This document shows positions 1,780 to 25,239 of a stretch of 28,242 nt of DNA, one piece after another (within the stretch, counting starts at the first letter, position 1; each line of letters begins with the position of its first letter). The position numbers and the translations under genes are program-made. This stretch comes from a virus: positions 1-28,242 of IMG/VR virus record IMGVR_UViG_3300025705_000017. One strand, written 5' to 3'. Below the pieces are notes generated by a model. The model worked only from the letters and a program-made list of their open reading frames with translations. It did not search any database and was not told the DNA's origin.

Positions 1780-2631
1780 ATGAGTTTAAAGAAGGTTATT
1801 AGAGAATTTTATCACGAAAAAAAATTACAAGAAGGGTTTGACCCTGAAGGTAATCCCGATTTAAAGTATTATGCTTTTGATTGGGATGATAATATTGCGA
1901 CTATGCCGACACAAATCATACTTTTGTCCGATGAGGACGAGGAGGTGGGAATGTCAACAGAAGACTTCGCCGACTATCGAGGTATGATTGGTAAAGAACC
2001 TTTTGAATATAAGGGTAAAATGATTGTAGGGTATGCCGATGACCCTTACAGAAATTTCGGAGTTAAGGGTGATAACGCCTTTATAGTGGACTCCCTATTA
2101 GCAAAACCAGGTCCATCGTGGAATGATTTTGTTGAAGCGATAAACGGGGGGTCAATTTTTTCAATAATCACTGCAAGAGGTCATACACCATCGGTATTAC
2201 GTGAAGCGATTTATAATATGATAGTGACTAACCATAACGGTATTAGCAAGGAGTCTTTAATTGACAATCTTAAAAAGTATCGTAATATGTCGGGTGATGA
2301 GGAAAAAGATTCGTCCATAATGATTAATGATTATTTGGATTTAAATAAATACCATCCTGTAACATATGGTGAAGGTAACGCTGCGGACCCTGAGGAGGGT
2401 AAAATTAAAGCTTTAAGGAGTTTTATTGCGTATGTTAAAGAAATGAGTGAGAGAATCGGTAAAAAAGCCTTTCTTAAGAATGATATAAAAAATAATTTCG
2501 TACCAATGATTGGGTTTTCTGATGATGACCCAGGCAATGTAGAAAAGATTAAAGCATTTTTAGATAAAGAATATAAAGATAAACCAGTTAAAATGTATTT
2601 AACTAAAGGAGGAGATAAAAAAGAAGTATAA
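1780..2631 (+). CDS. HAD-superfamily phosphatase-like protein
   Basis: Predicted 283-aa haloacid dehalogenase (HAD) fold hydrolase, a family that mostly removes phosphate from small molecules or proteins through an aspartyl-phosphate intermediate. Motif I is seen at residues 31-39 (YAFDWDDNI), giving D34 as nucleophile and D36 as acid/base. Motif II is the Thr in SIITARGH (T131). The acidic metal-binding motif IV is GFSDDDPGN (residues 245-253, D248/D249). All the key residues are present, so it is probably active. The 110 residues between motifs II and IV could hold a cap and the motif III lysine (several Lys, not resolved). It sits between the sheath and tube genes, which suggests co-expression with late structural proteins, but there is no direct evidence that it is in the virion. 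The substrate is unknown. ATG 1780 follows an A-rich leader without Shine-Dalgarno sequence. Confidence 0.75.
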   Translation: MSLKKVIREFYHEKKLQEGFDPEGNPDLKYYAFDWDDNIATMPTQIILLSDEDEEVGMSTEDFADYRGMIGKEPFEYKGKMIVGYADDPYRNFGVKGDNAFIVDSLLAKPGPSWNDFVEAINGGSIFSIITARGHTPSVLREAIYNMIVTNHNGISKESLIDNLKKYRNMSGDEEKDSSIMINDYLDLNKYHPVTYGEGNAADPEEGKIKALRSFIAYVKEMSERIGKKAFLKNDIKNNFVPMIGFSDDDPGNVEKIKAFLDKEYKDKPVKMYLTKGGDKKEV

Positions 2632-2751: not shown

Positions 2752-3240
2752 ATGGCAGACTTATTAATGAAAATGCCCGTTCCCTATGAACCAAAAAGGA
2801 AGAACCGATTTATACTATCGTTTCCATCTTCATTGGGTATTAATTCTTGGTATGTTGAGTCTACATCAAGACCTAACATCCAAATCGGGTCAACAGAGAT
2901 TCCTTTTTTAAACACCTCTACATACGTAGCAGGTAGATTCGTGTGGAACACGATAAACGTTACATTCCGTGACCCAATTGGACCATCAGCGTCACAAGCG
3001 TTAATGGAGTGGGTTAGATTACATTCAGAGTCCGTAACAGGACGTATGGGATATGCTGCAGGTTATAAGAAAGACTTAGACCTAGAGATGTTAGACCCAA
3101 CAGGTGTGGCGGTTGAAAAATGGATTCTACAAGGAACATTTTTAACTGATGTTAATTTCGATAGTTTAGGATATAGTGATGATGCGTTAGCTACTATTAC
3201 AGCTACATTACGTCCTGATAGATGTATTTTGGTATACTAA
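2752..3240 (+). CDS. 19: Tail tube protein (gp19-like)
   Basis: Subunit of the inner tail tube through which DNA leaves the particle; 162 aa, close to T4 gp19 (163 aa). The sequence matches the family layout: an N-terminal KMPVPYEPKRKNRFILSFP strand pair, a WYVESTSRPNI loop, a central FVWNTINVTFRDPIGPS block and a C-terminal pair of strands ending near TITATLRPDRCILVY. The fold is the double-sheet barrel shared with Hcp. ATG at 2752 follows an A-rich leader (aaaccaaaatacaATG) without Shine-Dalgarno sequence. A strong terminator follows, so the tube mRNA probably ends here, consistent with the need for many copies. Confidence 0.93.
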   Translation: MADLLMKMPVPYEPKRKNRFILSFPSSLGINSWYVESTSRPNIQIGSTEIPFLNTSTYVAGRFVWNTINVTFRDPIGPSASQALMEWVRLHSESVTGRMGYAAGYKKDLDLEMLDPTGVAVEKWILQGTFLTDVNFDSLGYSDDALATITATLRPDRCILVY

Positions 3241-3334: not shown

Positions 3335-4084
3335 ATGGACCAAGGAAAACAATACGGACAAGCAAATATGAATTTACCACACGATGTGGTACCATTACCA
3401 TCGCAAGGTATTTTTTACACTAATAAGAAAAAATCACTTAAAGTCGGTTATTTAACCGCTCAGGATGAAAACTTATTATTATCTAATTCAGGAAGTAAAA
3501 ACTTAGTGATGACATTACTAAAAAATAAAATTTACGAACCTGATTTTAATGTTAACGAATTATTAGATGGGGACGCCGAGGCTGTATTAATATTTTTAAG
3601 AAATACTGCGTTTGGTTCTGACTATAACTTTGTATTAAAAGACCCAAAAACAGGTAAGGATTTTAATTTTAAGGTGGCTTTAGATGAATTAAACATTGAA
3701 AAAACTAAGATAAAACCTAATGAAAAGGGCTTATTTGAATTTAATTTACCAAAAACAGGTGTCAATGTTGTATGTCGACTTTTAAATATTCAAGATACTA
3801 ATGAGTTATCTGAATTACCTGATTTATACCCTGACGGAGTAACGGTACCTCTTGTTACTAAACGGTTAGAAAAGTTAATCATTTCCATAGATGGGGATGA
3901 AAATAGAGAAAAAATATCAACCTTTATAAGTACGCTACCTATTATGGATTCAAAATTTATTAGAAACACAATGAAAGATTGTGAACCTAAGTTGGACCTT
4001 AATAGAACTACTACAGCCCCGTCAGGAGAAAAAGTGACTATGCGTATCACTTTTGGGGCGGAGTTTTTTCGTCCTTTCTTCTAA
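3335..4084 (+). CDS. Baseplate hub protein, gp26/gp51 (T4_baseplate) type
   Basis: A 249-aa protein with the pattern of the T4 baseplate hub assembly family (gp26/gp51 type) found in many T4-like phages. The N-terminus has the typical LPHDVVPLPSQGIFY segment followed by a strand with KVGYLTAQDENLLL. The middle has a short repeat of beta strands, and the tail ends in strands with FGAEFFRPFF. In T4 such proteins help assemble the central hub and need not be abundant in the virion. The position after the tube gene and before the tape measure fits. The TAA at 4082-4084 is preceded by TTC and followed by C, and the +1 frame continues open into the next ORF (see findings). Start ATG 3335 is clear. 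Which T4 gene it corresponds to is not certain, so no symbol is given. Confidence 0.72.
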   Translation: MDQGKQYGQANMNLPHDVVPLPSQGIFYTNKKKSLKVGYLTAQDENLLLSNSGSKNLVMTLLKNKIYEPDFNVNELLDGDAEAVLIFLRNTAFGSDYNFVLKDPKTGKDFNFKVALDELNIEKTKIKPNEKGLFEFNLPKTGVNVVCRLLNIQDTNELSELPDLYPDGVTVPLVTKRLEKLIISIDGDENREKISTFISTLPIMDSKFIRNTMKDCEPKLDLNRTTTAPSGEKVTMRITFGAEFFRPFF

Positions 4085-6327: not shown

Positions 6328-9300
6328 ATGTCATTAAGTCCATTATCATTTGATTCTACTGAAAATTTTAGAAAAAAATTATTAGTAAAAAATCTACAAC
6401 CATATAATAGTGATGGTTTTACTCCTGCGTCACAACCAGGACAAAGCGAAGTTATTATAAATGATATTGGTGTTATTGACTCTCAAGAGGTAGAGGTGAT
6501 TGGTTCTGATGAAGGAAACTACGCTTATGTTAAAAACCAATATGGACCTGAAGGTGGTTTTGGTGAGCCGAAATCTATTGATGACATTACTTTTATAAAT
6601 TCTGTAACGAGTTTTAGTAATACTTTAAATTTAGATATGAATCAGGGCATACCTGCCTTAGTCGGTAAAAGTCCTTATAACACATTTATTGCGTCATCAT
6701 ATAATCCATTTATATTATTAACAAGTCAAAACCCTCAAGGGGATAACGGTTCATTATCTCAAGATTCTGATTTAGCGAGAATTGCTGCGGAATCACTTAA
6801 GACTGAGTTTCAATATCGAATAGCCGAAGAAACATATCAACAAACTATAGGTAGAGTAAACGCGATAGATGCGTTAACAGACCCATTTGATTTACTCGGT
6901 ATCGTCACAGGTAATAAATCTATTATTGAGAGAGATTGGAAAATTTCAGTACCTAAGAGTTTAATTGGTAAAGGTTTAGATTTCATTAGTAGAGTTAGTG
7001 GTGTGTATTCACCATATTCGTGGATACCTGGTGATTACTTTAGTTCTGAACCAAAACAAATGTATTTAAATCAAATAGCCAATAAAATAACAGGTTTATT
7101 TGATAAGAGAGGAGTTTTAAAGTTACCCACCGAAAAGACAGGAATGCAAATATTCTTGGATAATACAGGTGGTGGACAACGTTCAAGACTTTTTCACGGA
7201 CTTAGATTAAACCGTTATATACCTGATTATAATAAAAACTTCTTAACCGATTTATTTACAAAGGTACCTAAACAAAATTATTACGTAGGTAGTTCGCAAC
7301 AAGAAATGAGAGATGTTGTTGCTCCTGCGGAGTCATTACCGTTAGATAGAGATGGTAATAAAACTCAAACACCAGTATATGGTTATGATGAGGTTGCTAA
7401 AATTTACGAAAACGAAGAAAAAGATAATCAATATAAATTTGGTTTAAATCAAACCTCAACATATGATGATGGGGGATTACAAGGAGGATTTACTTGGGTT
7501 TCACCAAAATATAAAGATAGGGCAGGGCAAAAAGTTGGTAAAGGTGCGGAGTTTTTTGGTACTATTGATACGGATTGGAATGAACAAGGGGTTCAAAATA
7601 CTTTTACAGCTACACAATCGGTAGACGGTTCTGGAAATTACCAATACACTAAAGGTTCTATATTAGATAATACACAAAAATTAATTAACGCTGCCGATGA
7701 GGTAGTAGGTGTTAGAAAACTACAACATGTTGGTAATGCCATTGACCAAGTATCAAAAGTGTTTCATGATGGTACGAGAGAACTAACAAAAGGTTCAAGA
7801 GTAATTGCCTATAAAGATGTTGATGGTGATATCGTTGGACAGGAGTATTGTCGTGTATTCACTAAAGATACCCCATATTACTCTATGGGTGATTTACAAA
7901 AAACTGAGGGAATTACAACGGCAAATAGACGGTTTACTTACTCAGTGTTAGATAGTACATACAATTTAAACATTGCGCCAATGAGGGGTAATGAAAGTAC
8001 AAACATAGTAGGTAATGATTTTAGTCCTAAAGGTGAAGGAGTTAAAAAATACATGTTTTCTTTAGAAAACTTAGCATGGAGAACGTCAAGAAAAAAAGGG
8101 TTCACCTATCAAGACCTACCACATTGTGAGAGAGGACCTAATGGTGGTAGGATAATGTGGTTCCCACCTTACGATATGAAAGTAAGTGAAACAAACTCAG
8201 CGAATTGGAATACAAATGAGTTCTTAGGTCGACCTGAACCAATTTATACGTATAATAATACAACAAGAAATGGTAATTTAAGCTGGAAGATTGTGGTTGA
8301 CCACCCATCAATACTAAATGCTATAGTGGATAAAGAATTGGCGAATCAGAGTAATAACAATAAAGTTACAGGTATTGTGGATTCATTTTTTGCTGGTTGT
8401 AGAAAATACGACATATATGAATTAGCCTTAAGATACCCTCAATTTACTTATAATGATATCTACGAGATAATTGTTAACTCACCTGTACCTGAAGAAGTTA
8501 AGGAAAATTTTGATTTTATAAATCCTGGCGTACCTGGAGATGAGGACCCCGCAGTTGTTGAGTATGTTGATAAAGTAAAAGAGGATACTTACAGTTTTGC
8601 TTATTATTTTGATAATGATGTTCCTGGGCCAACAAACGCTACATCAACCACCTCTGATGAGTCTTACCAAACAACATTAACTAATTATATCGCTAGACAG
8701 AGTGATTATAATAAAAACGCGAGTACCGAAAATAAAGTGGGGGTTAAGGAGTTCTATGAAAAAAATATTTTAACAGGACCTGAAAAGGGACCGTTACATA
8801 GTACTTTATTATTTATTGAAGGAGTTGGAGAGGCGTTAAATGCCGGTTCTACAGTTGAAGTCTTATTACAAGGTTCGGCATCGTCACCTAATGCTGTTGA
8901 TTATAATAAATCATTATCAAAAAGAAGAATCGATAGTGTTATACAATATTTATTACCATTAAAACCTTCAAATAGTCAAAAAACGTTACAACAGTGGAAA
9001 GATGATGGTAAATTTATAATTAAAGAGGTTGCGTCGGGAGAACAGGTGACTATTGGTGGTGTCGATTGTACTCAAGATTTACCTCAAGGTGATAAGGTAT
9101 ATTCACCACAGGCGATGGGTTGTAGAAGAGTATTTTTTAACAGTGTTGTTGAAACACCATCTCAAGAAGAAGTTCCGGTAAGTGATGAAGAAAAGACGGT
9201 ACCCACAAAAGATACTGTAACGGAAACTGTTACTGAGGAACCAATTAAATATAAAGACCCAACAACAACCGCAAAACAAAAACAAGAGGTAGCGAAGATA

Positions 9301-11103
9301 ATAGTTAGAAAATTATTGACTGAGTGTGATTACTTTAATTTAGTAAAGGAAAGTTCGCCGATGGTTTATAGTGGTATAAAGGAAAAAATAAAGTACTTCC
9401 AACCAGCATTTCACTCTATTACACCTGAAGGTTTAAATTCAAGACTTACTTTTTTACAACAATGTATTAGACCTGGTGATACTATACCTGTAATAGGTGA
9501 TGATGGTAGACCAACTGAGTTTAATGCAAAGAATACATCATTTGGGGCGCCACCGATATGTATATTAAGAATTGGTGATTTCTATCATACTAAAATTGCT
9601 ATTAATCAAATATCTATCAGTTATGAACCATTAACTTTTGATTTAAATCCTGAGGGGATAGGTGTCCAACCAATGTTAGCGGATATTAATATGTCATTTT
9701 TCTTTATAGGTGGTCAAGGATTGAAAGAACCTGTAAATAGATTACAAAACGCACTTTCATTTAATTATTACGCCAATACAGAGGTTTACGATGAAAGGTC
9801 TGTAGTTACAGAACAAAGGGACGAGTTAAATCAAGAGATATGGGAATCTATAGAAAGTAATGTAGTCTTTGATGGTAAAGATAATATACCAACTAATGAT
9901 AACATACCAACTAAAGGTGTTACAATTGGTACTATTAAAACTGACGAATTAACCACTTATCCTACAACTACCACAACTACAACTAGTGGTCAAACCTCTT
10001 TTAAAACGATAATGGCAACTGCGGTTGAGGATGTTAAAAATTACGCAAACTCAATGACTGAATCACTCACTCAAGTAGCAAATACTTACTCAATAGATGG
10101 TTTGGCTTACTTTACGGACGAAAGAAATTATACTGACGGTAAAACGTTAGGTTACTATACTGATGGATTTACAGGTACAACTACAAATACCAAACTATTT
10201 GGTAAACCAAAAGAGGACGAGTTACAAAATAAAATAAATAATCTTTTTGATGAAATAATTGATGATGTGAATAATGATAATTCACCATTACTTAAAAAGA
10301 TACATAATAAGAATTTTACAAATGCCGATATAGATTTATATAAGTTTAATATAATTACTTTAATTAATGAAGTTAAACCAAATTACATATCAGATTATAT
10401 GAGTGTTATGCCAAAAGTTGTGAATAATCAATTAAGTCTAATCGAAACCATAGATAAAATAAGTTTTGTAATGACGAATACAGATGGCTTTGCGGATAAG
10501 GCGAGAAATGTACAACAAGAATTAACAGCAACTGATAGTGTTGACAAAACTTCTAAAAACGCAAATAACACATACGAAGAAATGGAAAATGATATGGTGA
10601 CTTTAAGTACTGACTTAAAGGAGTTTTATGACCAAATATTTGACGATAATAAAAAATTAGTCGAAAAACCATTTAAACCTGATTACTCATTTTCGATTGA
10701 ATACCAAGATGAGGGTCAATATTACTCTCGTTTTATGAATGCTATGTATCAAAAAATATTAAACGATAAAGACACGGTTATATTAAAACTATTGAATGAT
10801 AGGTTAGGTAACATCAATAAATGGGACAGATACGTTAATAATCTTGTTGATGACTTACAAAGGAACTATGAAAAAGTACAAAGAAAAACTGAAAGAGAGT
10901 TAGACAGATTTAGTAAACGTAGTTCAGTTAGGAAGTTTAACGACTATTCACCATTTACTAAAGAAAAAGAAAGAATATTTTATTATATAAACGTACCTAA
11001 AGAGAACATAAATTCAGTTAGAGATGGGTACTTTAACGAACTGTATTCTGGATTAAATAAAGGTACTGCAGAATCATACAACGGAAAAGTAACATTTAAT
11101 TAA
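6328..11103 (+). CDS. Giant baseplate/tail-tube-end protein with OmpA-like domain
   Basis: 1591-aa structural protein. Its parts, in order: an N-terminal region (about 1-600) rich in Tyr/Asn/Gly with no recognised fold; residues about 605-665 with ETNSANWNTNEFLGRPEP and WKIVVDHPSI, a pattern I associate with tail-tube-end or cap proteins of T4-like phages; residues about 753-942, an OmpA/MotB-like domain (SFAYYFDNDVPG strand, then YNKSLSKRRIDSVIQYL, the NxxLSxxRxxxVxxYL motif of peptidoglycan binding, and the last strand MGCRRVFFNS). The linker near 950-985 is Glu/Thr/Pro-rich. Residues about 1075-1155 (CILRIGDFYHTKIAINQ, then PEGIGVQPMLADINMSFFFI) resemble LysM-adjacent tube-initiator domains. 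A Thr-rich linker (about 1211) precedes a helical C-terminal part. Neighbours gp53-like and the 2203-aa protein indicate a hub role. It may combine T4 gp48/gp54-like functions with wall binding; this is inferred. Structural class is fairly sure, exact T4 equivalent is not. Confidence 0.7.
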   Translation: MSLSPLSFDSTENFRKKLLVKNLQPYNSDGFTPASQPGQSEVIINDIGVIDSQEVEVIGSDEGNYAYVKNQYGPEGGFGEPKSIDDITFINSVTSFSNTLNLDMNQGIPALVGKSPYNTFIASSYNPFILLTSQNPQGDNGSLSQDSDLARIAAESLKTEFQYRIAEETYQQTIGRVNAIDALTDPFDLLGIVTGNKSIIERDWKISVPKSLIGKGLDFISRVSGVYSPYSWIPGDYFSSEPKQMYLNQIANKITGLFDKRGVLKLPTEKTGMQIFLDNTGGGQRSRLFHGLRLNRYIPDYNKNFLTDLFTKVPKQNYYVGSSQQEMRDVVAPAESLPLDRDGNKTQTPVYGYDEVAKIYENEEKDNQYKFGLNQTSTYDDGGLQGGFTWVSPKYKDRAGQKVGKGAEFFGTIDTDWNEQGVQNTFTATQSVDGSGNYQYTKGSILDNTQKLINAADEVVGVRKLQHVGNAIDQVSKVFHDGTRELTKGSRVIAYKDVDGDIVGQEYCRVFTKDTPYYSMGDLQKTEGITTANRRFTYSVLDSTYNLNIAPMRGNESTNIVGNDFSPKGEGVKKYMFSLENLAWRTSRKKGFTYQDLPHCERGPNGGRIMWFPPYDMKVSETNSANWNTNEFLGRPEPIYTYNNTTRNGNLSWKIVVDHPSILNAIVDKELANQSNNNKVTGIVDSFFAGCRKYDIYELALRYPQFTYNDIYEIIVNSPVPEEVKENFDFINPGVPGDEDPAVVEYVDKVKEDTYSFAYYFDNDVPGPTNATSTTSDESYQTTLTNYIARQSDYNKNASTENKVGVKEFYEKNILTGPEKGPLHSTLLFIEGVGEALNAGSTVEVLLQGSASSPNAVDYNKSLSKRRIDSVIQYLLPLKPSNSQKTLQQWKDDGKFIIKEVASGEQVTIGGVDCTQDLPQGDKVYSPQAMGCRRVFFNSVVETPSQEEVPVSDEEKTVPTKDTVTETVTEEPIKYKDPTTTAKQKQEVAKIIVRKLLTECDYFNLVKESSPMVYSGIKEKIKYFQPAFHSITPEGLNSRLTFLQQCIRPGDTIPVIGDDGRPTEFNAKNTSFGAPPICILRIGDFYHTKIAINQISISYEPLTFDLNPEGIGVQPMLADINMSFFFIGGQGLKEPVNRLQNALSFNYYANTEVYDERSVVTEQRDELNQEIWESIESNVVFDGKDNIPTNDNIPTKGVTIGTIKTDELTTYPTTTTTTTSGQTSFKTIMATAVEDVKNYANSMTESLTQVANTYSIDGLAYFTDERNYTDGKTLGYYTDGFTGTTTNTKLFGKPKEDELQNKINNLFDEIIDDVNNDNSPLLKKIHNKNFTNADIDLYKFNIITLINEVKPNYISDYMSVMPKVVNNQLSLIETIDKISFVMTNTDGFADKARNVQQELTATDSVDKTSKNANNTYEEMENDMVTLSTDLKEFYDQIFDDNKKLVEKPFKPDYSFSIEYQDEGQYYSRFMNAMYQKILNDKDTVILKLLNDRLGNINKWDRYVNNLVDDLQRNYEKVQRKTERELDRFSKRSSVRKFNDYSPFTKEKERIFYYINVPKENINSVRDGYFNELYSGLNKGTAESYNGKVTFN
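9880..9915 (+). repeat. Short in-frame tandem duplication, 18 bp x 2
   Basis: Two 18-base copies (9880-9897 and 9898-9915) differ at 2 positions and encode DNIPTN then DNIPTK in a linker of the 1591-aa protein. A Thr-rich segment follows nearby. This looks like slippage-driven growth of a flexible linker. Confidence 0.6.
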
Positions 11104-11105
11104 TT

Positions 11106-11423
11106 ATGAGATATTGGAACAGATATACAGACTTTTTAGTTAACGGACAACAATCAGTAGTTCCGTTTGTTAGAATACCCTCAAAACCTTCGGATAAAAG
11201 ATTTATTTTTAGGACTGGTCGTAGTAGGTTAGATAAACTAAGTTATGAGTTTTATGAATCACCGTATTTTGGTTGGTTAATATTGGCCGCGAATCCACAG
11301 TATGGTGGTTTAGAGTCTAATATTCCTGATAACGCTCTACTTTTTATACCATTTCCCCTAACAAATTCTTTACAGGACTACAAAGCGGCGGTGGAACAAC
11401 ATTTCTTCTACTATGGCAGATAA
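11106..11423 (+). CDS. 53: Baseplate wedge protein, gp53-like (LysM-like)
   Basis: A 105-aa protein with the LysM-like core of gp53, a wedge component that helps join wedges around the hub. Diagnostic stretch: TGRSRLDKLSYEFYESPYFG, then WLILAANPQYGGLESNIPDN and LLFIPFPL, matching the family pattern of DxLxxxxYxxxxxxWxIxxAN followed by IPxxxxLxIP. It is much shorter than T4 gp53 (196 aa) but similar in length to many gp53-like LysM tail proteins of other phages. The ATG is 3 bases after the stop of the giant gene, and the last 11 bases overlap the next gene, so the three are probably translated together. Confidence 0.8.
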   Translation: MRYWNRYTDFLVNGQQSVVPFVRIPSKPSDKRFIFRTGRSRLDKLSYEFYESPYFGWLILAANPQYGGLESNIPDNALLFIPFPLTNSLQDYKAAVEQHFFYYGR

Positions 11424-14400
11424 TAAATTTTTTGGTAACGATAAGGTTTATGTACAAACCGAATATGATAATGTTGTACTAATTGACCCCAACAAAGTTG
11501 TCAATTCTGACGGTACGGTTCAAGAACGCAATGTCAAACAAGAAAATTTAATAACCTACGCAAACTTAGAGGCGAGGGTAATACCAAGAACAAAATTAGC
11601 TATTGGGTCTAATTACTCGGATAGTGTTAAAAATGTGGGGGTGGCTCAATTAAAGGTTAATTTTATGGAAGGTAATCCACAAAATCAAAAAGAACCCAAC
11701 GTCAACTTAGGAGGTAAAGACTCTGAAGACCCAAAATATTTTGATTCTACATGGACTGACCAATTTTTACCTGGACAAAATAATAAAATGGAAAATGACA
11801 TTTTTAGTTCAGGAAGAGGCGTTGATACACAATTATTAGGTATTACCAGAATTAACATAAAAATGAATCCTGCATTTGTCCCTACGGTTACTATTGAAAT
11901 GACCGATGTACAGGGAAGAGTTTTATTTGAAAGGGGTGATAAGTCGCCGTATTCGATATTCATGAATTTACCATACCCAATTTTTATTTTAACGGTAAAA
12001 GGTCATTATGGTAAAGCGATTAAGTTAGAGTTAATGTTAAAAGATTTTAACGCCAGATTTGAACCTTCAGACGGTAGTTACAAAATAACGACCTCATATG
12101 TTGCTAGGTCACACGCCTTTCTAAAAGATACGTTATTAGATTATCTATACACTACACCACATATGTACCCAAAAAGTTATGAACTTGAAAACGTCAAGGG
12201 GGTACCTGCGGGAGGAACAGTTGCAATTGATAAGATTGATACCACTAAAGGAATGGAAAAAATAAAAGAAGTGTATTCTTTATATAAGGCTAAAGGTTTA
12301 GTAAGTGAGGATTTTCCTGAAATTACTCTTAATCAAATGAGAATGAGGTTAGAGTACTTTAATCGTTATGTTATGGAGGCGTATTCTAAAGAAGATATGT
12401 CAGTTTTAACTAATATCGTCAATTATGAGAGAGCCATTACGAAATATAGAAGAAGTCTTTATCCTGATGTTGGTAAAAATTGGTATAATCAGTATATTGA
12501 CAGGAATCAAATCTATATTTTAAAAGATACTAAAGCTACCGTGTTGTACGGATTAAATCCTGACCTTGATGAACAAGGACGTAGAACCGCAATATCAAAA
12601 TTAAAAATTGCGATTGACGAAGGTAATAAATCATTACAAGATAACCCAACGTTTTTTCTTCCTGGTACTTATGAGATAGAAGGTAAATCAAATCCTTCAA
12701 AAATTGCGGTTAACATTAAAGCTAGTGACTTAATAGAAGATATTACGGACCCAGAGGTAATAGATTATAAGGCAACATATATTAAACGTAATGGTAATGA
12801 ACCAACAGAAGAGCAATTAAAAAAGTTTGAAGGGGACATTAAAGGAGCGTTTAAAGTTTCGTCCAAAAGTTATAAAGTTGGAAAGGATGGTGAATTACAG
12901 GAAACTGATAGCCCTTCAGTACTTATCGCTTTTGGTGGAGTTTTTAAAAGTGCTAACTTTCAAAATGGTAGTTTTCTGGCTAAATTAGCTAAAATTGAGA
13001 CTACATTTAAAAGATTAAAGGAAGAGATTGAAACAAAATTATCTGAAGCATTAGCTAAAAAAATTGTAAGTTCAGATGTGGGATTAGGATTTAATCCAAC
13101 AATGAATAATGTCTTAGCGGTTATATGCGCAAACGCTGAGGCGTTTTATAGGTTAATGGATGAGACTCATAGAAGGGCGTGGGATGTTAGAGATAATCCG
13201 GTAAGGTTAACTGCGATTTTTGAAAAGGAATTTGGTGTTGATGCGTCTAAAAACTCATTAAAAACAGTAAAAGTTGATGGTAAAGAACCTACTTTACAAA
13301 ATAGTCAAATAGTTTATCCGTGGCCACAATATTTTATTGAAGAGACGGTTGATAATAAAACTGAATATACTCTAACTTATCCGGGTGACCCCGCAGTGGT
13401 TAATACGTTACAGGGATGGAACCATAATGTTTGGCCTGAAATACAATTTACTGAGGAATATATTACAGCGTCTTTAGAAAAAGACAAACCTAATATTAAT
13501 ATAAATTATGGTAATGAAACCCAAGTCACTAACTATATTGGAATAAATTCAGTGGAGTTCCCGTTCGATAATTCGCCATATACCAATGAAGAATATGTTT
13601 CATTTTTCTATGAAATATATGAAAGAACCTACTTAGGAGCTAACTATAGTAAAGTAGTTAGAAATAATAATTTTAGAAAAACGTTATATAACGTATTGGC
13701 GGATTTTGAATCATCTAACATAAAAGATGGTGTAGATAACATTCCTGAATTAATGAAAATATTAAAGGAATTTAAATTTAATGCGTCAACTTTTAATCGA
13801 TACCTTTTATCAATTTCTAATAATGGTGAAGGTAGTTATTTTGCCAGAAAGGTGAGAGACATATATACTCAAAATTATATAAAAGGTTATATTGAACACG
13901 ATTTTGGTATCTACAGTCAAGAAAGTATGAATACAAATTCGGTTGAGGTTATATCATCAACAGAGTCAGTAAAAGATTTAGAAACTTATATTACGGGAAC
14001 GTCATCAAACGCTACTACGTTAATGGATGTGTATCCATTTAATAATCTTAAATGGTTAAAAGAAAATATTTCTAACGGTAAAGATATATCAAATATTGAA
14101 AGAGCTAATAGTACTACTAGTATTATGAATTTTAATATTCTTAAAAAGAGTATTGCGACGTTTGATGACCAATCATCTGATGATGTAAGATATAAAAATA
14201 ATTTTATCACTTATTACCAATACGATAAAAACTACCCGTCAAATCCAAATCAAAACACTAGTAATAATAGTGATAGTACGCAGTATCAAACAAATGCTCA
14301 GGTTAAGGATTATTATTTAAACAGAGAAAATAAAGATTTTTATTTAACGGAAAGTCCAATAGATTATGGGACTGATTATAATACTGCAACAAACAATTTA

Positions 14401-17400
14401 ACAACAATACAGACAACGTCTCTATTGAATACTCCTTATTTTACTAATGCAATATTGAAGGGGGTATCGGGTGAAACAAATCAAGAGGTAAACCCATATG
14501 TTGGTTTAGGTTATATATATTTGAATTCACTGCCACTACCAACATTAAGTGAGAAATATTTAACAAAAAACACTAGCGATGCTGGTGTTGATACTGTAAA
14601 ATGGGGAGATAACATTTATGCTGGTTTAAGTAAGTTTGCTGCTCTCCATAAAATACCTTACCTTTGGTTATTAAAGTACGGTTCAATATGGCATAGATAC
14701 AAAGAAGATAAAGTAGGTAATGGAGATATTCTTGATGGGATATGGAAAGATTTTGATTATGTTAACGCGTATGACCCAATTACTAACGATATAAATAAAG
14801 TTTATGATGTACAAAACTATACGGGGGGTAGTGCGACCTATGTTCCTCAAAAAACTGAAGTAGTTCCTGTACTAATACCTAATATAATAAATCCAACACT
14901 TCCAGGTACACTTGTTAATTTTAACAAACAAATTACTAAAAATGGATTTTATCCTAAAGTGGTAAATGACACTTACAAATTCTTTACTGGTAAATCACCT
15001 TTAACGGGGTACACCAACACTGAAATGAATGACTTATTTAATAATGGTAAATTCAAATTAGGTAAATCACAAAGTAATTTTTTACCTGCGGGATATGACC
15101 AAGATAACGTACTTAACACTTTAAATTATGATAGTTACTACCAGTACTTTGATATTGAGGGTAACGTTAGTTTTGATTTTAATTTTACAGTTTCAGGTGA
15201 AAATACTACTTCACCAAAGATGTTAATAATACCATCTTCAGGTTATTTAAAATTTACACAAGCCCAAAGAGAGTGTCTAAACTCACAAAATCACTTAACC
15301 CAAAGTATAGATATTAATAATAAATCGATTCAAAATGGTAATGTTAGGTCATTGTGGGCGTCATCTAATTACGGGTATTATAATAATGAATGGGTAAGAA
15401 AACCCAAGACAAATCAATATATTAAAGTTATTGATACGGGAGATACTCAACAAAATGCGTTTAATATTATTAATAAAAATAATGATAACCCATATAAATC
15501 TATTGAGGAAATTTTTGCAATTTTCTCTAAAGAGATGTTAGATGAATTTGAAAAACACTTTTTAAACTTTTGTAAAAAAGATAAGGACTATGAAGATATA
15601 GTATTTAATCCATCCACACCTAACGATGACGAGTACTTAGGGGCATTTAATATTGAGTACAATTATAATATTGAAAAAGTAATGAAAAGTTTACTCATTA
15701 TTGATAAACCTGAATTAACAGATAATTCAATAAATGATGTTAAGAGTATTTCTGATAATCAAATGGAACAATTTGTCAATTTAAATAAAACTCAAATACA
15801 GGAAAGGGATATTATATTAAAAATAGGTAACCCAGGGAGATTTAATAGACGAGTGTTTGATTCATTCTCATCCATTGAAAATATTGTTCCAATAGACCCA
15901 ATTGACTTTAGTTATTATAGAGAGAATACTGTTCCAACTGCGACAAACTCGACTACATTGGCTGCTAGCCAAGGAACATTCCCTGAAGTATGGGATGAAT
16001 TATATTTACGTGTTGGTACGTATGAAGACTTTGATTTAATGTATAGTGATAATGGTTCCTTTATTACTGATTTTTTTCCTGTTATGGATATTCAGTTTAC
16101 TAAAGAAAATGTTAGAGATTTGTCACAAATTATTAAAGTTTTTGCAACACAAAAAATGAATGACAATAATTTAACTAAGAGTGATTTTCAACAAACATTT
16201 GATGATTTTATGTCAGGTCAGGTAACATTTCAAAATGACATGTTAAACCAAATTTTTACTAATTTAAATAAAACGTTACCGTCAGTTAAAGTAAACAATA
16301 CCCAATCAAGAATTTCTAAATTAGACGATAAGGGAGGTGCTTTAAAAACTGAATTATGGGAAACATTTAAAAACTTTAATGATAGGTGGATATCAGGTCA
16401 AGATGTTAAGAATAAAACATTGTTTGAGCAATTTCTATTTTTGGATAAGGCGAATAGACCTATTGGTGATAAGGTAATCATTAATATTAATCAATTAAGA
16501 GGGTTTTTAAAAAGTAATTTAGCTCAAACTAGTGTGTTGGACTTAATAGGTAGTATTTTAGAAAAAAATAATTTTATATTTATGCCCACACCATCTTACG
16601 CTAATTTTTATGGTAGAAACGAAAGAGTAAAAGAAGGTATGCCTAACCCCGCGTTTAGTGATGTTGCTAATAATACTTTTGGAACATTTTTAGAAGTAGA
16701 TACCCATACCTCTGAACCTAAATTATTGGCGATATATGTTGGTAAACCCGCCGAAAAATTAAACACGTCACCTGAAAACGATAATTACTTATACGGGGAC
16801 GATTCTTTTGATATATCAATACCGTCACAAAGTGGAGTTAGAGCAACCGAAGATGGTGTCACCAATTTCTCAGATAGAAATAAGGTAGTTGCGTTTAATG
16901 TAGACTTTGGTATACAAAATCAAAGTATATTTAAATCAATCAATATTGATATGTCACAAAGAAAAAATATAGCACCAACGTTTCAAGTGCTCGCGGATAT
17001 GGGTGCTCAGGCCGATGGACAAAAAGTGGCTCAACAGTCGGTAAGTTTATATAATTTTTATAAAGCGGCTAGTTATAATTGTAGTGTTACGTCTATGGGT
17101 AACGTTATGATTCAACCTACAATGTATTTTAATTTAAGGTATGTTCCAATGTTTTATGGTCCTTATTTAATAACAAGTGTAACTCATGATATCACTACCA
17201 GAGATTTTCAAACGAGTTTCGAGGGGGTACGTATGTCAAAATACTCACTAAAAATGCCTAATGGATTAATATCTAGTGTTAATCGAGAAATAGTACAAAA
17301 CTACTTATCGGAAGTTAGAAGAATACCCACACTTGCGGGTTCTACTGCAGATACAGTTACTAGGTCAACAGATATAAAAAATAGTTCAACCAAGAGTGGG

Positions 17401-18024
17401 GCAAAAACACAAATTGTTGACAATCAAAAATGTGTTGCGGTACAAAAAATTAATAAACCTTATGTTGATATTACACGAAAAAGTATTACTCAGACTAAAT
17501 TTAAAACTTTAATTGACGGAAGTAGTAATCTTAATGAAAATGTAAAACGATTTATTTTTGGGGTGGGTTATGTTGAAAATGGTAATGGTACTAATGTGGA
17601 GAGTATAAACAATAATCACTTCAACTTAAAAAACCTTAAAGAAAACGCAAGATGGACAATTAACTTTGAAGAACAAACCTGTGTAAATGATAATAACTAT
17701 GCGGTACCATACTTATCATTTAAATCGCCAGCCGATTCAATTAAATTTATGGGTCAAGTATGTTCACAGTATAAACAAATAATTGACGCATTTTTAGTTA
17801 ATACAACAATAAATGGTAATTTACCTAAAACATTTGCATACTTATGGTATTATACCTTTAGATTTACTACTATGGATAAAGAATTGACTGCGGGTAGTAA
17901 TATCGATGATTCGATTATTGCGTCAGTTAATCATGATTTAAATGCGAATAGCGTATCAAAACAACTTTTTGATAAAGCTGAGGCGGTTTTTAAATCTAAA
18001 ATAAACACTTGGAATAGAAACTAA
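11413..18024 (+). CDS. Giant baseplate hub protein with possible C-terminal muralytic domain
   Basis: 2203 aa, the largest gene in the window (6.6 kb). N-terminal residues about 141-255 include LGITRINIKMNPAFVPTVTI, FILTVKGHYGKAIKLELMLK and FLKDTLLDYLYTTPHMYP, a pattern I recall from large phage hub proteins. Residues about 1860-1970 contain NCSVTSMGNVMIQPTMYFNL and FYGPYLITSVTHDITTRDFQ, typical of gp27/VgrG-like hub cores that bind the tube. Residues about 2015-2203 may be a glycoside-hydrolase-like wall-degrading domain: FGVGYVENGNGT with candidate catalytic Glu E2055, then NNHFNLKN about 13 residues later, similar to the E...N-x-F-G/N pattern of glucosaminidase-type enzymes. It may replace T4 gp27 plus gp5 lysozyme. 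The ATG overlaps the gp53-like gene by 11 bases. The central 1500 residues are unassigned. Hub role likely; the enzyme call is tentative. Confidence 0.68.
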   Translation: MADNKFFGNDKVYVQTEYDNVVLIDPNKVVNSDGTVQERNVKQENLITYANLEARVIPRTKLAIGSNYSDSVKNVGVAQLKVNFMEGNPQNQKEPNVNLGGKDSEDPKYFDSTWTDQFLPGQNNKMENDIFSSGRGVDTQLLGITRINIKMNPAFVPTVTIEMTDVQGRVLFERGDKSPYSIFMNLPYPIFILTVKGHYGKAIKLELMLKDFNARFEPSDGSYKITTSYVARSHAFLKDTLLDYLYTTPHMYPKSYELENVKGVPAGGTVAIDKIDTTKGMEKIKEVYSLYKAKGLVSEDFPEITLNQMRMRLEYFNRYVMEAYSKEDMSVLTNIVNYERAITKYRRSLYPDVGKNWYNQYIDRNQIYILKDTKATVLYGLNPDLDEQGRRTAISKLKIAIDEGNKSLQDNPTFFLPGTYEIEGKSNPSKIAVNIKASDLIEDITDPEVIDYKATYIKRNGNEPTEEQLKKFEGDIKGAFKVSSKSYKVGKDGELQETDSPSVLIAFGGVFKSANFQNGSFLAKLAKIETTFKRLKEEIETKLSEALAKKIVSSDVGLGFNPTMNNVLAVICANAEAFYRLMDETHRRAWDVRDNPVRLTAIFEKEFGVDASKNSLKTVKVDGKEPTLQNSQIVYPWPQYFIEETVDNKTEYTLTYPGDPAVVNTLQGWNHNVWPEIQFTEEYITASLEKDKPNININYGNETQVTNYIGINSVEFPFDNSPYTNEEYVSFFYEIYERTYLGANYSKVVRNNNFRKTLYNVLADFESSNIKDGVDNIPELMKILKEFKFNASTFNRYLLSISNNGEGSYFARKVRDIYTQNYIKGYIEHDFGIYSQESMNTNSVEVISSTESVKDLETYITGTSSNATTLMDVYPFNNLKWLKENISNGKDISNIERANSTTSIMNFNILKKSIATFDDQSSDDVRYKNNFITYYQYDKNYPSNPNQNTSNNSDSTQYQTNAQVKDYYLNRENKDFYLTESPIDYGTDYNTATNNLTTIQTTSLLNTPYFTNAILKGVSGETNQEVNPYVGLGYIYLNSLPLPTLSEKYLTKNTSDAGVDTVKWGDNIYAGLSKFAALHKIPYLWLLKYGSIWHRYKEDKVGNGDILDGIWKDFDYVNAYDPITNDINKVYDVQNYTGGSATYVPQKTEVVPVLIPNIINPTLPGTLVNFNKQITKNGFYPKVVNDTYKFFTGKSPLTGYTNTEMNDLFNNGKFKLGKSQSNFLPAGYDQDNVLNTLNYDSYYQYFDIEGNVSFDFNFTVSGENTTSPKMLIIPSSGYLKFTQAQRECLNSQNHLTQSIDINNKSIQNGNVRSLWASSNYGYYNNEWVRKPKTNQYIKVIDTGDTQQNAFNIINKNNDNPYKSIEEIFAIFSKEMLDEFEKHFLNFCKKDKDYEDIVFNPSTPNDDEYLGAFNIEYNYNIEKVMKSLLIIDKPELTDNSINDVKSISDNQMEQFVNLNKTQIQERDIILKIGNPGRFNRRVFDSFSSIENIVPIDPIDFSYYRENTVPTATNSTTLAASQGTFPEVWDELYLRVGTYEDFDLMYSDNGSFITDFFPVMDIQFTKENVRDLSQIIKVFATQKMNDNNLTKSDFQQTFDDFMSGQVTFQNDMLNQIFTNLNKTLPSVKVNNTQSRISKLDDKGGALKTELWETFKNFNDRWISGQDVKNKTLFEQFLFLDKANRPIGDKVIININQLRGFLKSNLAQTSVLDLIGSILEKNNFIFMPTPSYANFYGRNERVKEGMPNPAFSDVANNTFGTFLEVDTHTSEPKLLAIYVGKPAEKLNTSPENDNYLYGDDSFDISIPSQSGVRATEDGVTNFSDRNKVVAFNVDFGIQNQSIFKSINIDMSQRKNIAPTFQVLADMGAQADGQKVAQQSVSLYNFYKAASYNCSVTSMGNVMIQPTMYFNLRYVPMFYGPYLITSVTHDITTRDFQTSFEGVRMSKYSLKMPNGLISSVNREIVQNYLSEVRRIPTLAGSTADTVTRSTDIKNSSTKSGAKTQIVDNQKCVAVQKINKPYVDITRKSITQTKFKTLIDGSSNLNENVKRFIFGVGYVENGNGTNVESINNNHFNLKNLKENARWTINFEEQTCVNDNNYAVPYLSFKSPADSIKFMGQVCSQYKQIIDAFLVNTTINGNLPKTFAYLWYYTFRFTTMDKELTAGSNIDDSIIASVNHDLNANSVSKQLFDKAEAVFKSKINTWNRN

Positions 18025-19994: not shown

Positions 19995-20999
19995 ATGGCA
20001 ATAAAGAAAAAAGATTTTAGTAGTATAAAAAAGAAATTTTCTACATCCGCAAAATACAAACCACAAAGGTTTTTTGATTTGGGTGAGGATTTCTTAGATG
20101 CTGTTGGATTACCTGGACCAGCAATAGGTCATTTAAATATGTTTTTAGGGCATTCAGATACGGGTAAAACAACTGCGTTAGTAAAAGCGGCAGTAGATGC
20201 ACAGAAAAAAGGTATATTACCTGTATTCATTATTACGGAACAAAAATGGTCTTTTGAACACGCAAAACTTATGGGTTTCGAGTGTGATGAAGTAGTTGAT
20301 GAGGAAACAGGTGAATTAGATTGGGACGGCTTCTTTATTTTTAATAATAATTTTAATTATATAGAACAAATAACTGACTTTATTAATGAATTATTAGACG
20401 CTCAGTCTAAAGGTGAATTAGACTATGACTTATTGTTCTTATGGGATTCAGTAGGTTCAGTACCATGTAAAATGACTTTTGACGGTAAAGGTGGTAAAAT
20501 GCATAACGCATCTACATTAGCGGATAAGATAGGTATGGGTATCAACCAAAGAATTTCGGGCTCACGTAGAGCGGATTCTAAGTATGAGAATACTTTATTA
20601 ATTGTTAATCAACCTTGGGTACAACTTCCTGATAACCCATTTGGGCAACCTAAGATAAAGAGTAAAGGAGGTGAAGCGATTTGGTTAAATTCTTCTTTAG
20701 TTTTCTTATTTGGTAATCAAAAAGATGCGGGTACTACCACTATATCTGCAGTTAAGAACAAAAGAAAAGTAAAGTTCGCTTCAAGAACAAAAATATCAGT
20801 AATGAAAAATCACATTAATGGATTAGGATATGCTGATGGGAAAATAATTGTAACCCCACACGGATTCTTAGCAGGTAAGGAAAGTAGTGAAGAAAAAAAA
20901 TCAATTGAAAAATACAAAGGTGAACAATCTGAGTATTGGAAAGAAGTCATTGGAGTAGAAGGTGACTTTAAGTTAGAAGAAGAAAAACAGGAAGTGTAA
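19995..20999 (+). CDS. uvsX: UvsX-like RecA-family recombinase
   Basis: 334 aa recombinase that forms filaments on ssDNA (with gp32 partner) and drives strand invasion, used in T4-type recombination-dependent replication and repair. Walker A is GHSDTGKTT at residues 52-60, Walker B is LLFLWDS at 146-152, and the L2-region signature is NQPW at 205-208. Its P-loop has a full GxxxxGKT pattern. The C-terminus (from about 290) is highly charged, ending EEEKQEV. It lies 18 bases after the terminator's T-run; the RNase H gene follows 18 bases later, which fits a replication operon. Start ATG follows an A-run with no Shine-Dalgarno sequence. A host-type RecA is less likely given the neighbours and the length. 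Confidence 0.88.
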   Translation: MAIKKKDFSSIKKKFSTSAKYKPQRFFDLGEDFLDAVGLPGPAIGHLNMFLGHSDTGKTTALVKAAVDAQKKGILPVFIITEQKWSFEHAKLMGFECDEVVDEETGELDWDGFFIFNNNFNYIEQITDFINELLDAQSKGELDYDLLFLWDSVGSVPCKMTFDGKGGKMHNASTLADKIGMGINQRISGSRRADSKYENTLLIVNQPWVQLPDNPFGQPKIKSKGGEAIWLNSSLVFLFGNQKDAGTTTISAVKNKRKVKFASRTKISVMKNHINGLGYADGKIIVTPHGFLAGKESSEEKKSIEKYKGEQSEYWKEVIGVEGDFKLEEEKQEV

Positions 21000-21017
21000 C
21001 AATTTAACGCATAAAAA

Positions 21018-22034
21018 GTGGTTAAAACATTATTAATTGACGGAAATAATTTATTTAAAATAGGTTTTCATGGAGTTAGAGATTTCTATCATGAGGGTAA
21101 ACATATTGGAGGTATCTATCATTTTGTCAATACAATCAAAAAGTTTCTTAATGAACACAATCATGATAAAGTAATTGTGTTTTGGGATGGGGAGAATAAC
21201 TCATCCCAAAGAAAACTTATTTCACCAGACTATAAGGGTAATCGTAGGCAAACTTTAAATGAGGCTAAAAAAGAATCGTTTGAGTGGCAAGTACAACAAG
21301 TTAAAGCTTATCTTGAAGAAATGTTTATCAGACAAGTTTCTGTTAAAAATACTGAAAGTGATGATTTAATTGCTTATTACTGTCAAATATCTGAAAACGA
21401 GTATAAGACTATATATTCTTCAGATAAAGACCTTACACAACTTATATCGGACAAAGTGGAGGTGTACCAACCGATGAAGAGAATAACCCTTAAAAATGGA
21501 GATTTAGTCCCTTTAAAGGATATATCTATCCCTCACCAAAACATATCAACATTTAAGATTATATCGGGAGATAAATCCGATAATATTGACGGTATCCGTT
21601 ATATGGGAGAAAAAACATTTGTTAAGTTATTTCCCGAAATAGTTGATAGTGTCGTAACTATTGATGATATTTTAAAACGTGCGGAGGAGCTACATAAAAA
21701 TGATAAAGACAATCGAGCATTACAAAATTTACTCTCAGGTAAAACTAAAAGAGGAATTTATGGTGAAGAATTTTTTATAATAAATAAAAAACTCGTAGAT
21801 TTGTCTCAACCATTATTAACTGAAGACTCAAAAGAAATAATTAAACAGTACCATACAGAAAATTTAGACCCTGATGGTAGAGGTTATAAAAACTTAATGA
21901 GAATGATGATGAAAGATGGAATTTTTAAGTATCTACCAAAACATGACAACGCGTGGGTTGAATTTTTAACCCCTTTTATGAAATTAACAAGAAAAGAAAA
22001 AAGAAGATTTAAAACTAAAAAACGTTTAATATGA
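21018..22034 (+). CDS. rnh: RNase H, FEN-1/PIN family 5'-3' nuclease (T4 Rnh-like)
   Basis: 338 aa nuclease that removes RNA primers and short DNA flaps of lagging-strand fragments. The metal-binding acidic residues fall in typical places: LLIDGNN near the N-terminus, VFWDGENN with the following RKLISPDYKGNR arch, TESDDLIAYY, and IYSSDKDLTQLI. The helix-three-turn-helix follows as IISGDKSDNIDGIRYMGEKT. T4 Rnh is 305 aa, so this protein has some extra C-terminal basic sequence (KLTRKEKRRFKTKK, residues about 320-335), perhaps DNA- or partner-binding. The start is GTG at 21018, since the protein begins directly with the first strand (VKTLLIDGNN) and no ATG lies just upstream. Its last four bases (ATGA) overlap the next gene, so they are probably co-translated. 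Confidence 0.88.
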   Translation: MVKTLLIDGNNLFKIGFHGVRDFYHEGKHIGGIYHFVNTIKKFLNEHNHDKVIVFWDGENNSSQRKLISPDYKGNRRQTLNEAKKESFEWQVQQVKAYLEEMFIRQVSVKNTESDDLIAYYCQISENEYKTIYSSDKDLTQLISDKVEVYQPMKRITLKNGDLVPLKDISIPHQNISTFKIISGDKSDNIDGIRYMGEKTFVKLFPEIVDSVVTIDDILKRAEELHKNDKDNRALQNLLSGKTKRGIYGEEFFIINKKLVDLSQPLLTEDSKEIIKQYHTENLDPDGRGYKNLMRMMMKDGIFKYLPKHDNAWVEFLTPFMKLTRKEKRRFKTKKRLI

Positions 22035-22495
22035 AAGAAAAAACAGAAACAACCAAATTAGAGTTCTTAATGACTCTAAATGATAACTTTGTTGTACAGA
22101 GGTACTTTAATGTTAGAGGGTATAACCCTAAGGCTAGAGGGAGTGTTGAACTTTATGAGGTAATCAGAAATGCGTCTGAAGTAATTCAGGAAGATTTGAA
22201 AATCAAATCGTGTAACTACCTTTCAGAAAATATTGGTCAAATAACGGTCAATCCTGAATTGTTAGAGACATCAAATACTGAAGGTGATGAGTATTTTAAC
22301 ATCTATCTTAAGATAGGAGATGAGACAATTTGTCATAGAATTTGGGATGCTAAAATATACCCACCTAAGACTAGATACACTGTGGATGTACGCCCACACC
22401 TAAAAAAGTTACTTCGCGAGTTAACTGACACTTTCTCAAGTGAAAATTTAACTTACAAGTACATGGAGCATTCACTAATTCACCCATATTTATAA
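22031..22495 (+). CDS. Unknown replication-cassette protein, 154 aa
   Basis: 154-aa protein of unrecognised family. It starts with ATGA overlapping the RNase H stop and ends just before the helicase gene (31 bases), so its job is probably linked to replication. The sequence mixes a helical N-terminus (TTKLEFLMTLNDNFVVQRYF, then a charged VRGYNPKARGS segment) with strands in the middle (FNIYLKIGDETICHRIWDAK) and a helix near the end (HLKKLLRELTDTF). There is no visible P-loop, zinc site or catalytic motif. Position suggests a helicase loader, a helicase or gp32 partner, or an accessory nuclease subunit; none is supported by motif. Confidence 0.72.
   Translation: MKEKTETTKLEFLMTLNDNFVVQRYFNVRGYNPKARGSVELYEVIRNASEVIQEDLKIKSCNYLSENIGQITVNPELLETSNTEGDEYFNIYLKIGDETICHRIWDAKIYPPKTRYTVDVRPHLKKLLRELTDTFSSENLTYKYMEHSLIHPYL
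22487..22494 (+). promoter_or_regulatory. TATTTATA box before the helicase gene
   Basis: TATTTATA lies over the end of the 154-aa gene, 32 bases before ATG 22527. It overlaps coding sequence, so chance is a fair explanation. Listed for completeness of the motif set. Confidence 0.2.
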
Positions 22496-22526
22496 TTTAC
22501 AAACACAGATTAAAACTCAAAAAAAT

Positions 22527-23906
22527 ATGTCAAAAGAAAAGAATTTTGGTTACCTCGGTAATACATTTCAACTACAAATACTTAACAATATTATCCTTCA
22601 TAAGGATTTTGCAAGTTCTATTGTAGATGTGTTGGAACCTAAGTACTTTGACAATCAATATTTTAAGTTAATCATGCAGATGACCAAGGAGTATTATCAC
22701 AAGTACGAACACGCTCCTTCGTTCTCAACACTTGAACAAATTACAAAATCAGAAGTTACATCACCTATGGCCCAAAAAATGGTCTTAGATATGATTACTC
22801 AAGTAGTAGACGCACCTGATGATGGATACCAATACGTTCAAGAAAAGGCGTTAAAGTTCTGTAAACAACAAGAATTACAGAAGGTAATGACTAAAGCACA
22901 GAAGATTATCGATAAAGGTGATTTTGAATCTTATGACCATTTAGAAGAAATGGTAAGAGAAGCTTTACAAGTTGGGGAAGTCGATACGGGAACTGCAGAT
23001 GTTTTTTTTAATTTAGATGAGGTTTTGGATGATGATTTTAGACATCCGATTCCGATTGGAATAACAGGTATAGATAACCTACTAAAAGGTGGGTTAGCGA
23101 AGGGTGAAATTGGTGTTATTTTAGCTCCGACAGGTGTTGGTAAAACCACAGTACTTAGTAAAATAGCTAATAACGCATTTAACTTAGGTTATAATGTTTT
23201 ACAAATATTTTTCGAAGACAACCCTAAGATTATACAAAGAAAACATTTCACTATGTGGACAAAAATCGCACCCGATAATTTGTCACTACAAAGGGAAGAA
23301 GTTTTAGAAAAAGTAAGACAAATTAAAGAAAATGCATCTAATCGATTAGTTCTAAAGAAGTTACCATCCGATACGTTAACGATGAATCAGATAAAGAATC
23401 AGATACGTAAAATGATAGCGGAAGGGACTAAAATAGATTTAGTTGTAGTTGATTATATTGATTGTATCGTTCCCGATAAAAATTTAGGGGACGAATGGAA
23501 AAGTGAAGGTTCGGTTATGAGAGGGTTTGAATCTATGTGTCATGAATTAGATATAGCAGGATGGACGGCCACTCAAGGTAACCGTTCTTCAATATCTTCT
23601 GAAGTAGTTACTACGGACCAAATGGGTGGTTCAATTAAGAAAGCTCAAGTAGGTCACGTTATTATTTCTGTTGCTAAATCCCTACAACAGAAAGAAATGA
23701 ATTTAGCAACAATTGCTATTACTAAATCAAGAATTGGTAAAGATGGAATTGTATTTGAAAATTGTAAATTCGATAACGAAATGATAGAAATTGATACGGA
23801 CAGTAGTGTAACATTCTTAGGAATGGAAGAACAAAAAGAAGAAAAGAACAAAGTACGTATTCAAGAACTTCTACAAAAAAGAAAACAAAGGGAAAATAAA
23901 TTATAA
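22527..23906 (+). CDS. 41: Replicative DNA helicase (gp41, DnaB-like)
   Basis: 459 aa hexameric 5'-3' helicase that unwinds the fork. The N-terminal domain (about 1-150) is helical, as in DnaB-like N domains that dock primase. The RecA-like motor starts near 170: Walker A is APTGVGKTT at residues 200-208, Walker B is LVVVDYID near 304-311, and further helicase motifs follow (TATQGNRSS near 350, and the region around IAITKSRIGKDG near 395-406). T4 gp41 is 475 aa, so the length fits. The C-terminal 30 residues are highly charged (KKRKQRENKL). A primase gene (T4 gene 61) is not seen in this window. It lies between an unknown gene and nrdB in one direction with short gaps. Confidence 0.9.
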   Translation: MSKEKNFGYLGNTFQLQILNNIILHKDFASSIVDVLEPKYFDNQYFKLIMQMTKEYYHKYEHAPSFSTLEQITKSEVTSPMAQKMVLDMITQVVDAPDDGYQYVQEKALKFCKQQELQKVMTKAQKIIDKGDFESYDHLEEMVREALQVGEVDTGTADVFFNLDEVLDDDFRHPIPIGITGIDNLLKGGLAKGEIGVILAPTGVGKTTVLSKIANNAFNLGYNVLQIFFEDNPKIIQRKHFTMWTKIAPDNLSLQREEVLEKVRQIKENASNRLVLKKLPSDTLTMNQIKNQIRKMIAEGTKIDLVVVDYIDCIVPDKNLGDEWKSEGSVMRGFESMCHELDIAGWTATQGNRSSISSEVVTTDQMGGSIKKAQVGHVIISVAKSLQQKEMNLATIAITKSRIGKDGIVFENCKFDNEMIEIDTDSSVTFLGMEEQKEEKNKVRIQELLQKRKQRENKL

Positions 23907-23928
23907 ATTTTTTTAAAAACAATAGTAA

Positions 23929-25209: not shown

Positions 25210-25239
25210 AAAGAAACAAAACAATAATAAAACAATAAT

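Follow-up and report, generated by a model that had tools for sequence, protein, structure and literature searches.

An OmpA-type, host-related domain in the predicted tail-tube initiator of uncultivated T4-like phages

How contractile tails meet the cell wall past the outer membrane is poorly understood, and the viral contig analyzed here (IMG/VR record IMGVR_UViG_3300025705_000017, positions 1 to 28,242, the whole 28,242-nucleotide stretch being referred to as the window) raises this question in a specific form, a first-pass annotation having placed an OmpA/MotB-like peptidoglycan-binding domain in the middle of a giant tail or baseplate protein. It has to be asked whether such a domain is present, which tail protein carries it, where it came from, and whether it serves to hold the cell wall or to build the baseplate. 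The features that bear on these points are collected in Table 1.

Table 1. Predicted tail genes of the window and features of the 1591-aa protein (window coordinates; res, residues of the 1591-aa protein).
Feature	Position	Strand	Basis or remark
Tail tube protein	2752..3240	+	phrog_4542 E=6.6e-28
gp26-like baseplate protein	3335..4084	+	PF12322 E=1.2e-7
Predicted tube-initiator protein with OmpA-type domain, 1591 aa	6328..11103	+	ORF; homologues in 73 IMG/VR loci
Barrel N-terminal half, res 590-659	8095..8304	+	Best conserved part, mean 85% identity to window; immuto gp035 core homology
Conserved, probably helical segment opening the insert, res 660-722	8305..8493	+	64% mean identity
Variable linker ahead of the domain, res 723-755	8494..8592	+	28% identity, 57% T/E/P/D/K/S, low pLDDT
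OmpA-type domain, res 752-949	8581..9174	+	Profiles, AF2, Foldseek, pocket alignment
Ser852, at the DAP-binding Asp position (PorE Asp576, A. baumannii OmpA Asp271)	8881..8883	+	Alignment
Y859-N860, L863, R866-R867, other pocket residues (PorE Tyr583, Asn584, Ile587, Arg591)	8902..8928	+	No variation across 67 phage and 36 bacterial sequences
Cys914, phage-specific	9067..9069	+	66/67 phage, 0/36 bacterial
Cys932, phage-specific, just before Arg933	9121..9123	+	65/67 phage, 0/36 bacterial
Variable Thr/Glu/Pro-rich linker behind the domain, res 941-982	9148..9273	+	22% identity, 64% T/E/P/D/K/S, 23-44 aa
Conserved, probably helical segment closing the insert, res 983-1030	9274..9417	+	69% mean identity
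Barrel C-terminal half, res 1031-1160	9418..9807	+	82% mean identity; collinear with immuto core
gp53-like baseplate wedge protein	11106..11423	+	phrog_7145 weak E=0.02; immuto gp034 at same position E=1.1e-10
2203-aa protein at baseplate-hub position	11413..18024	+	Position vs immuto gp033; last ~200 aa weakly glucosaminidase-like

Regarding the domain itself, homology delimits an OmpA-type block at residues ~752-949 of the 1591-aa product of the open reading frame at 6328-11103 (plus strand), that is, at window 8581-9174, a few residues off the span first proposed (8587-9150, residues 754-941). A search with PF00691, the check suggested together with that proposal, gave E=0.053 for the window segment alone, under the curated cutoff, and E<=0.1 for 30 of 32 dereplicated family members, with 1.6e-8 as the best value, which bears out an OmpA-like domain in the middle of the protein. 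The family profile had 44 matches in the PDB, the first 28 of which, and 38 in all, are OmpA/Pal/YfiB/MotB-type. In the AF2 model of residues 585-1165, the OmpA-type domain alone is predicted with confidence (block means ~80-95), and Foldseek against the PDB placed the PorE C-terminal domain, Pal and OmpA on top, at an E-value (6e-3) that is modest owing to the length of the query and the poor quality of the model elsewhere; the fold assignment therefore rests mainly on the sequence profiles. At the level of profiles and model the predicted beta-alpha-beta-alpha-beta-beta fold of OmpA type at residues ~752-949 is confirmed, in agreement with the strand-helix order that the first-pass annotation had described.

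The carrier protein was placed by way of its phage relatives. Similarity of the sheath pointed to Flavobacterium phage immuto and Microcystis phage Mel-JY01. The immuto genes run in the order sheath, tube, gp26-like hub subunit, tape measure, small ORF, gp035, gp034 (gp53-like) and hub, and this is matched in the window by sheath, tube, gp26-like, long ORF, 1591-aa protein, gp53-like and hub, the long ORF being called a tape measure by position only. The 1591-aa protein sits between the ORF at the tape-measure position and the gp53 and hub genes, as tube initiators do, and its N-terminal barrel half (~window 8150-8310) is matched by immuto gp035 (716 aa). The barrel of the window protein gave a poor AF2 model, and its assignment comes from the collinear profile match to immuto together with Foldseek: a model of the uninterrupted gp035 core (35 sequences, pLDDT 72) matches chains of eCIS baseplates and of phage tubes or initiators, with a best E of 1.5e-6, the baseplate-initiators of A-1(L) and the T4 baseplate-tube complex being among the matches. 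These matches give entry titles, and we take the chains behind them to be of the initiator type known as gp48/gp54 and Afp7/Pvc7/Cis7. Through its immuto homologue, we read the 1591-aa protein as the predicted tail-tube initiator of a T4-like phage; gene order and the immuto core match thus agree with the position at the end of the tail tube that had been suggested.

The domain belongs to a block of ~370 residues that falls between the two barrel halves. Compared with the immuto core by HHalign, the N block alone gave 53.0, and removal of residues 660-1030 with joining of the two blocks raised this to 69.0, against 53.3 for a control with the block order reversed; the C block alone, with the deeper alignment, reached E=4e-4 in a single comparison. 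An earlier shallow alignment had given E=0.83 for the C half alone and no gain over the reversed-order control, and the insertion is supported because the deeper alignment gave the collinear gain that the shallow one had not. An OmpA match was found in none of 52 immuto-type proteins, and in the window family the domain is always flanked by the two conserved blocks. Among the loci listed as L155-L194, both blocks are in the same ORF wherever this is complete, with the exception of L187, where an ORF of its own holds the second block. In this locus (L187:3604-8465) the OmpA domain and the second barrel half lie on two overlapping ORFs, for which a sequencing error, a split gene and a frameshift are all candidate causes. 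Mean identity across the family is 42% for the OmpA domain, against 82-85% for the barrel.

The suggestion that the protein fuses two or three units that T4 makes separately was not upheld, since a single initiator barrel was found in it and the other baseplate proteins are separate genes, the tube, gp26-like, gp53-like and hub proteins each being encoded on their own in the window. Profile comparison with the barrel found no second copy in residues 1-584 and 1165-1591, which speaks against a fusion of several T4 units, and no Pfam unit was found in these two flanks either.

Regarding the surrounding genes, the C-terminus of the 2203-aa protein was considered as a candidate peptidoglycan hydrolase. 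Its end (window 17428-18024) matches PF01832 at E=0.045, only when cut shorter, and the candidate was rejected, as 4 of 25 homologues have weak matches (best 0.0033) and the Glu of GYVENG is lost in distant members. The immuto hub, unlike this weakly glucosaminidase-like end, terminates in a VanY carboxypeptidase domain, and wall-enzyme modules of the hub seem to be swapped or decaying between phages. Between the sheath and tube genes (window 1780-2631) there is an ORF of 283 aa with a DWDDNIATMPT motif that looks HAD-type phosphatase-like, and UvsX/RecA-like, exonuclease-like, helicase-like and ribonucleotide reductase genes (window 19995-26946) stand between two groups of tail genes, with the hub before them and gp25 and gp6-like genes after.

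The question of origin was approached by searching bacterial and archaeal genomes with the domain. A single locus was confirmed, on a MAG that bears the title uncultured Flavobacteriales bacterium; its product is a TPR/beta-propeller/OmpA protein with a DUF1573-like tail. Within this MAG the relative matches at E=1.5e-28 across nearly the whole domain, and the next OmpA at 1.1e-8 over 76 residues. A match at 1e-10 was present in 73 of 100 genomes of the same order, nearly always in exactly one copy, and a match at 1e-12 in at least 7 of 296 genomes sampled from the phylum, a lower bound in that some genomes had only 11 candidates scored. This widespread, mostly single-copy bacterial protein (L075-L114) falls under all NCBIfam cutoffs in the members scanned, its architecture is distantly like that of PorE of the type IX secretion system, and its function appears to be undescribed.

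In the tree, the phage domains and the bacterial subfamily are set apart from the eight other OmpAs of the MAG (support 100/99), and the bacterial subfamily forms one clade (100/96). As judged from sequence, a common ancestry of the phage domain and the bacterial subfamily domain is shown. Phage monophyly received 49/84 only, and a reading of the transfer direction from the tree was dropped for this reason. Transfer from bacteria to phage would be the likelier direction, given that OmpA domains belong to the general make-up of the envelope and that insert-free phage relatives exist; most likely, the domain entered the phages from a host in a single, ancient capture and has diversified along with them since. 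Bacteroidota-type promoters were tried as a separate clue to the host and set aside, 4 matches against 1.45 expected being too weak.

Beyond the 73 loci on IMG/VR viral contigs with homologues of the whole protein, a scan with the domain alignment gave at least 438 confirmed stretches carrying the OmpA-type domain, and a search of 50,697 phage records found no homologue of the domain or of either the 1591-aa or the 2203-aa protein. The distant members L067, L068 and L069 have ~50-55 extra domain residues, largely between the second helix and third strand, and GSTTS/GSSTT in place of GSASS. A divergent relative (L073:6477-10691) carries in this place an OmpA-like insert of a more general kind (GFAS...N..LS.MRA), which may have replaced the OmpA-type domain independently. 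The literature searched, with incomplete coverage, described no phage baseplate with an OmpA domain. That an initiator can carry a cell-wall-binding fold is already known from LysM, and the new element is an OmpA-type, host-related domain inserted in the initiator barrel.

Whether this domain could bind peptidoglycan depends on its pocket. In the complex of PorE with a piece of peptidoglycan, DAP is bound by the Asp576, Asn584 and Arg591 side chains, Tyr583 and Ile587 making further contacts (PMC7192894), and Asp271 and Arg286 of A. baumannii OmpA were reported to be critical for DAP binding (PMC6572160). The PorE pocket spacing maps exactly onto Ser852, Tyr859, Asn860, Leu863 and Arg867 of the window protein, and all five positions rank within the 20 least variable of 198 alignment columns (p=6e-6). 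The Tyr, Asn, Leu and Arg do not vary over 67 distinct phage sequences, 36 of the bacterial subfamily and eight other OmpAs; at the position of the ligand Asp, all phage (67/67) and bacterial subfamily (36/36) sequences have Ser, and 8/8 other OmpAs of one MAG have Asp. The first-pass annotation had taken loss of the ligand-binding Asp/Arg pair in all homologues as a sign against its reading; of this pair the Asp is lost and the Arg is kept throughout, as are Asn and Tyr. Since Ser is found in all phage and subfamily rows, the Asp was lost before or at the phage/bacterial split and not by decay inside the phages. The conservation of the pocket would fit a retained ligand site, and it would also fit a constraint on the fold.

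The phage-specific Cys914 and Cys932 flank the loop ahead of the last strand, and E. coli OmpA has a disulfide in the corresponding loop. A disulfide between the two, if formed, would by analogy suit an extracytoplasmic working place.

The most likely role of the domain would be that of a tethered, host-derived grip on the cell wall, a reading that we put at about even chances. In such a grip, some six copies of the domain, going by hexameric initiators, would ring the tip of the tube; contraction of the sheath would bring the tip into the periplasm, where the Tyr-Asn-Leu-Arg pocket retained by the domains would bind peptidoglycan stem peptides and keep the tip at the wall during injection. 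The observations at its base are the domain, its relatives, its place in the barrel, the conserved pocket and the variable linkers, and linkers that vary on both sides of the domain, next to a barrel of 82-85% identity, would support a tether. Against a grip, the Asp reported as critical in A. baumannii OmpA (PMC6572160) is Ser throughout, and binding by the Ser version is a candidate activity; the YN..L...R residues may be kept by the needs of the fold as well as by those of a ligand; and known initiators use LysM, likewise a cell-wall-binding fold, as a structural part (PMC8894135, PMC8894136). The available evidence fits a scaffold as well, and we regard a structural connector, in which the OmpA fold would link the tube initiator to wedge or hub without wall binding and the conserved residues would keep the fold, as nearly as likely, if a little short of even. 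The LysM domains of the initiator-like Alg7 and Cis7 contact wedge proteins, that of Alg7 interacting with peripheral wedges and that of Cis7 having bound the tube to Cis9 and Cis12 (PMC8894135, PMC8894136), and LysM is also found in the tube initiator of Mu and in gp16 of A-1(L), which adjoins the initiator (PMC11915804, PMC10966104). The loss of the ligand Asp points the same way, as does the phage-specific Cys pair, which suggests stabilising constraints of the domain's own, whereas flexible, fast-changing linkers on both sides and a domain so much less conserved than the barrel (42% identity) are unlike a tightly packed interface, and the invariance of all five pocket positions also speaks against a mere connector.

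The relationship to one specific, mostly single-copy host family, and not to OmpA in general, together with the distantly PorE-like architecture of that family, would also allow mimicry, with the domain standing in for the host TPR/propeller/OmpA protein at its binding site, be this peptidoglycan or a protein partner, and thereby docking the tail at a particular envelope machine and not at the wall in general. As the host family scores far under the PorE and CHU_0125 cutoffs and its role and partner are putative, this is improbable. In its widest form, the proposal that a widespread, uncultivated T4-like lineage captured a host envelope anchor in its initiator, and that this anchor attaches the injecting tube to peptidoglycan, or to the envelope site of the host protein, through a Ser-type pocket unlike the canonical Asp/Arg one, is offered tentatively, at somewhat less than even chances.

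Cell-wall-binding folds in initiators (LysM) have so far been described as structural parts. The present case is an OmpA-type fold inside the predicted initiator, encoded on hundreds of contigs from uncultivated phages; its host relative can be identified and its pocket is defined, and the choice between grip and scaffold is therefore directly testable on one domain of ~200 residues. The domain also suggests itself as a marker for phages of Flavobacteriales-type hosts, and it reveals a subfamily of OmpA domains in which Ser replaces the ligand Asp.

Compared with the tube initiators of contractile systems (T4 baseplate-tube, cyanophage A-1(L), eCIS baseplates), the window protein has the same predicted barrel fold, that of its immuto homologue, and the same gene position, but known initiators have, next to the barrel, a LysM domain or a small domain of alpha/beta or helical type, whereas here an OmpA domain is carried on linkers within it. 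Gp035 of Flavobacterium phage vB_FspM_immuto (YP_010114648.1) shares the gene neighbourhood and a homologous core barrel; however, it is a protein of 716 aa with an uninterrupted barrel and without the OmpA domain. With the PF00691 family (OmpA, Pal, YfiB, MotB, TagL and the PorE C-terminal domain) the phage domain agrees in profile and predicted fold and has in common the pocket Tyr-Asn-x-x-Leu-x-x-x-Arg, followed by Gly-Glu and Arg-Arg/Ala-Val motifs; it differs in ~55 additional residues between the first strand and first helix and in being part of a virion tail protein and not of a periplasmic one. Canonical DAP binders have the ligand Asp, which is Ser in the phage domain, while Asn860 (PorE Asn584) and Arg867 (A. 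baumannii Arg286, PorE Arg591) are kept. Closest is the Flavobacteriales TPR/propeller/OmpA protein (L075, L087, L112 and others), alike over the whole domain of 190 residues, with a (F/L)YFxNDxPxP start, Ser at the Asp position and 17 positions conserved in both groups; the two are nevertheless far apart, the window domain being 31% identical to that of L075, the bacterial form having G(F/Y)ASP where the phages mostly have GSAS(S/A)P, and the phage protein lacking TPR and propeller (no TPR or PD40 match in 1591 aa).
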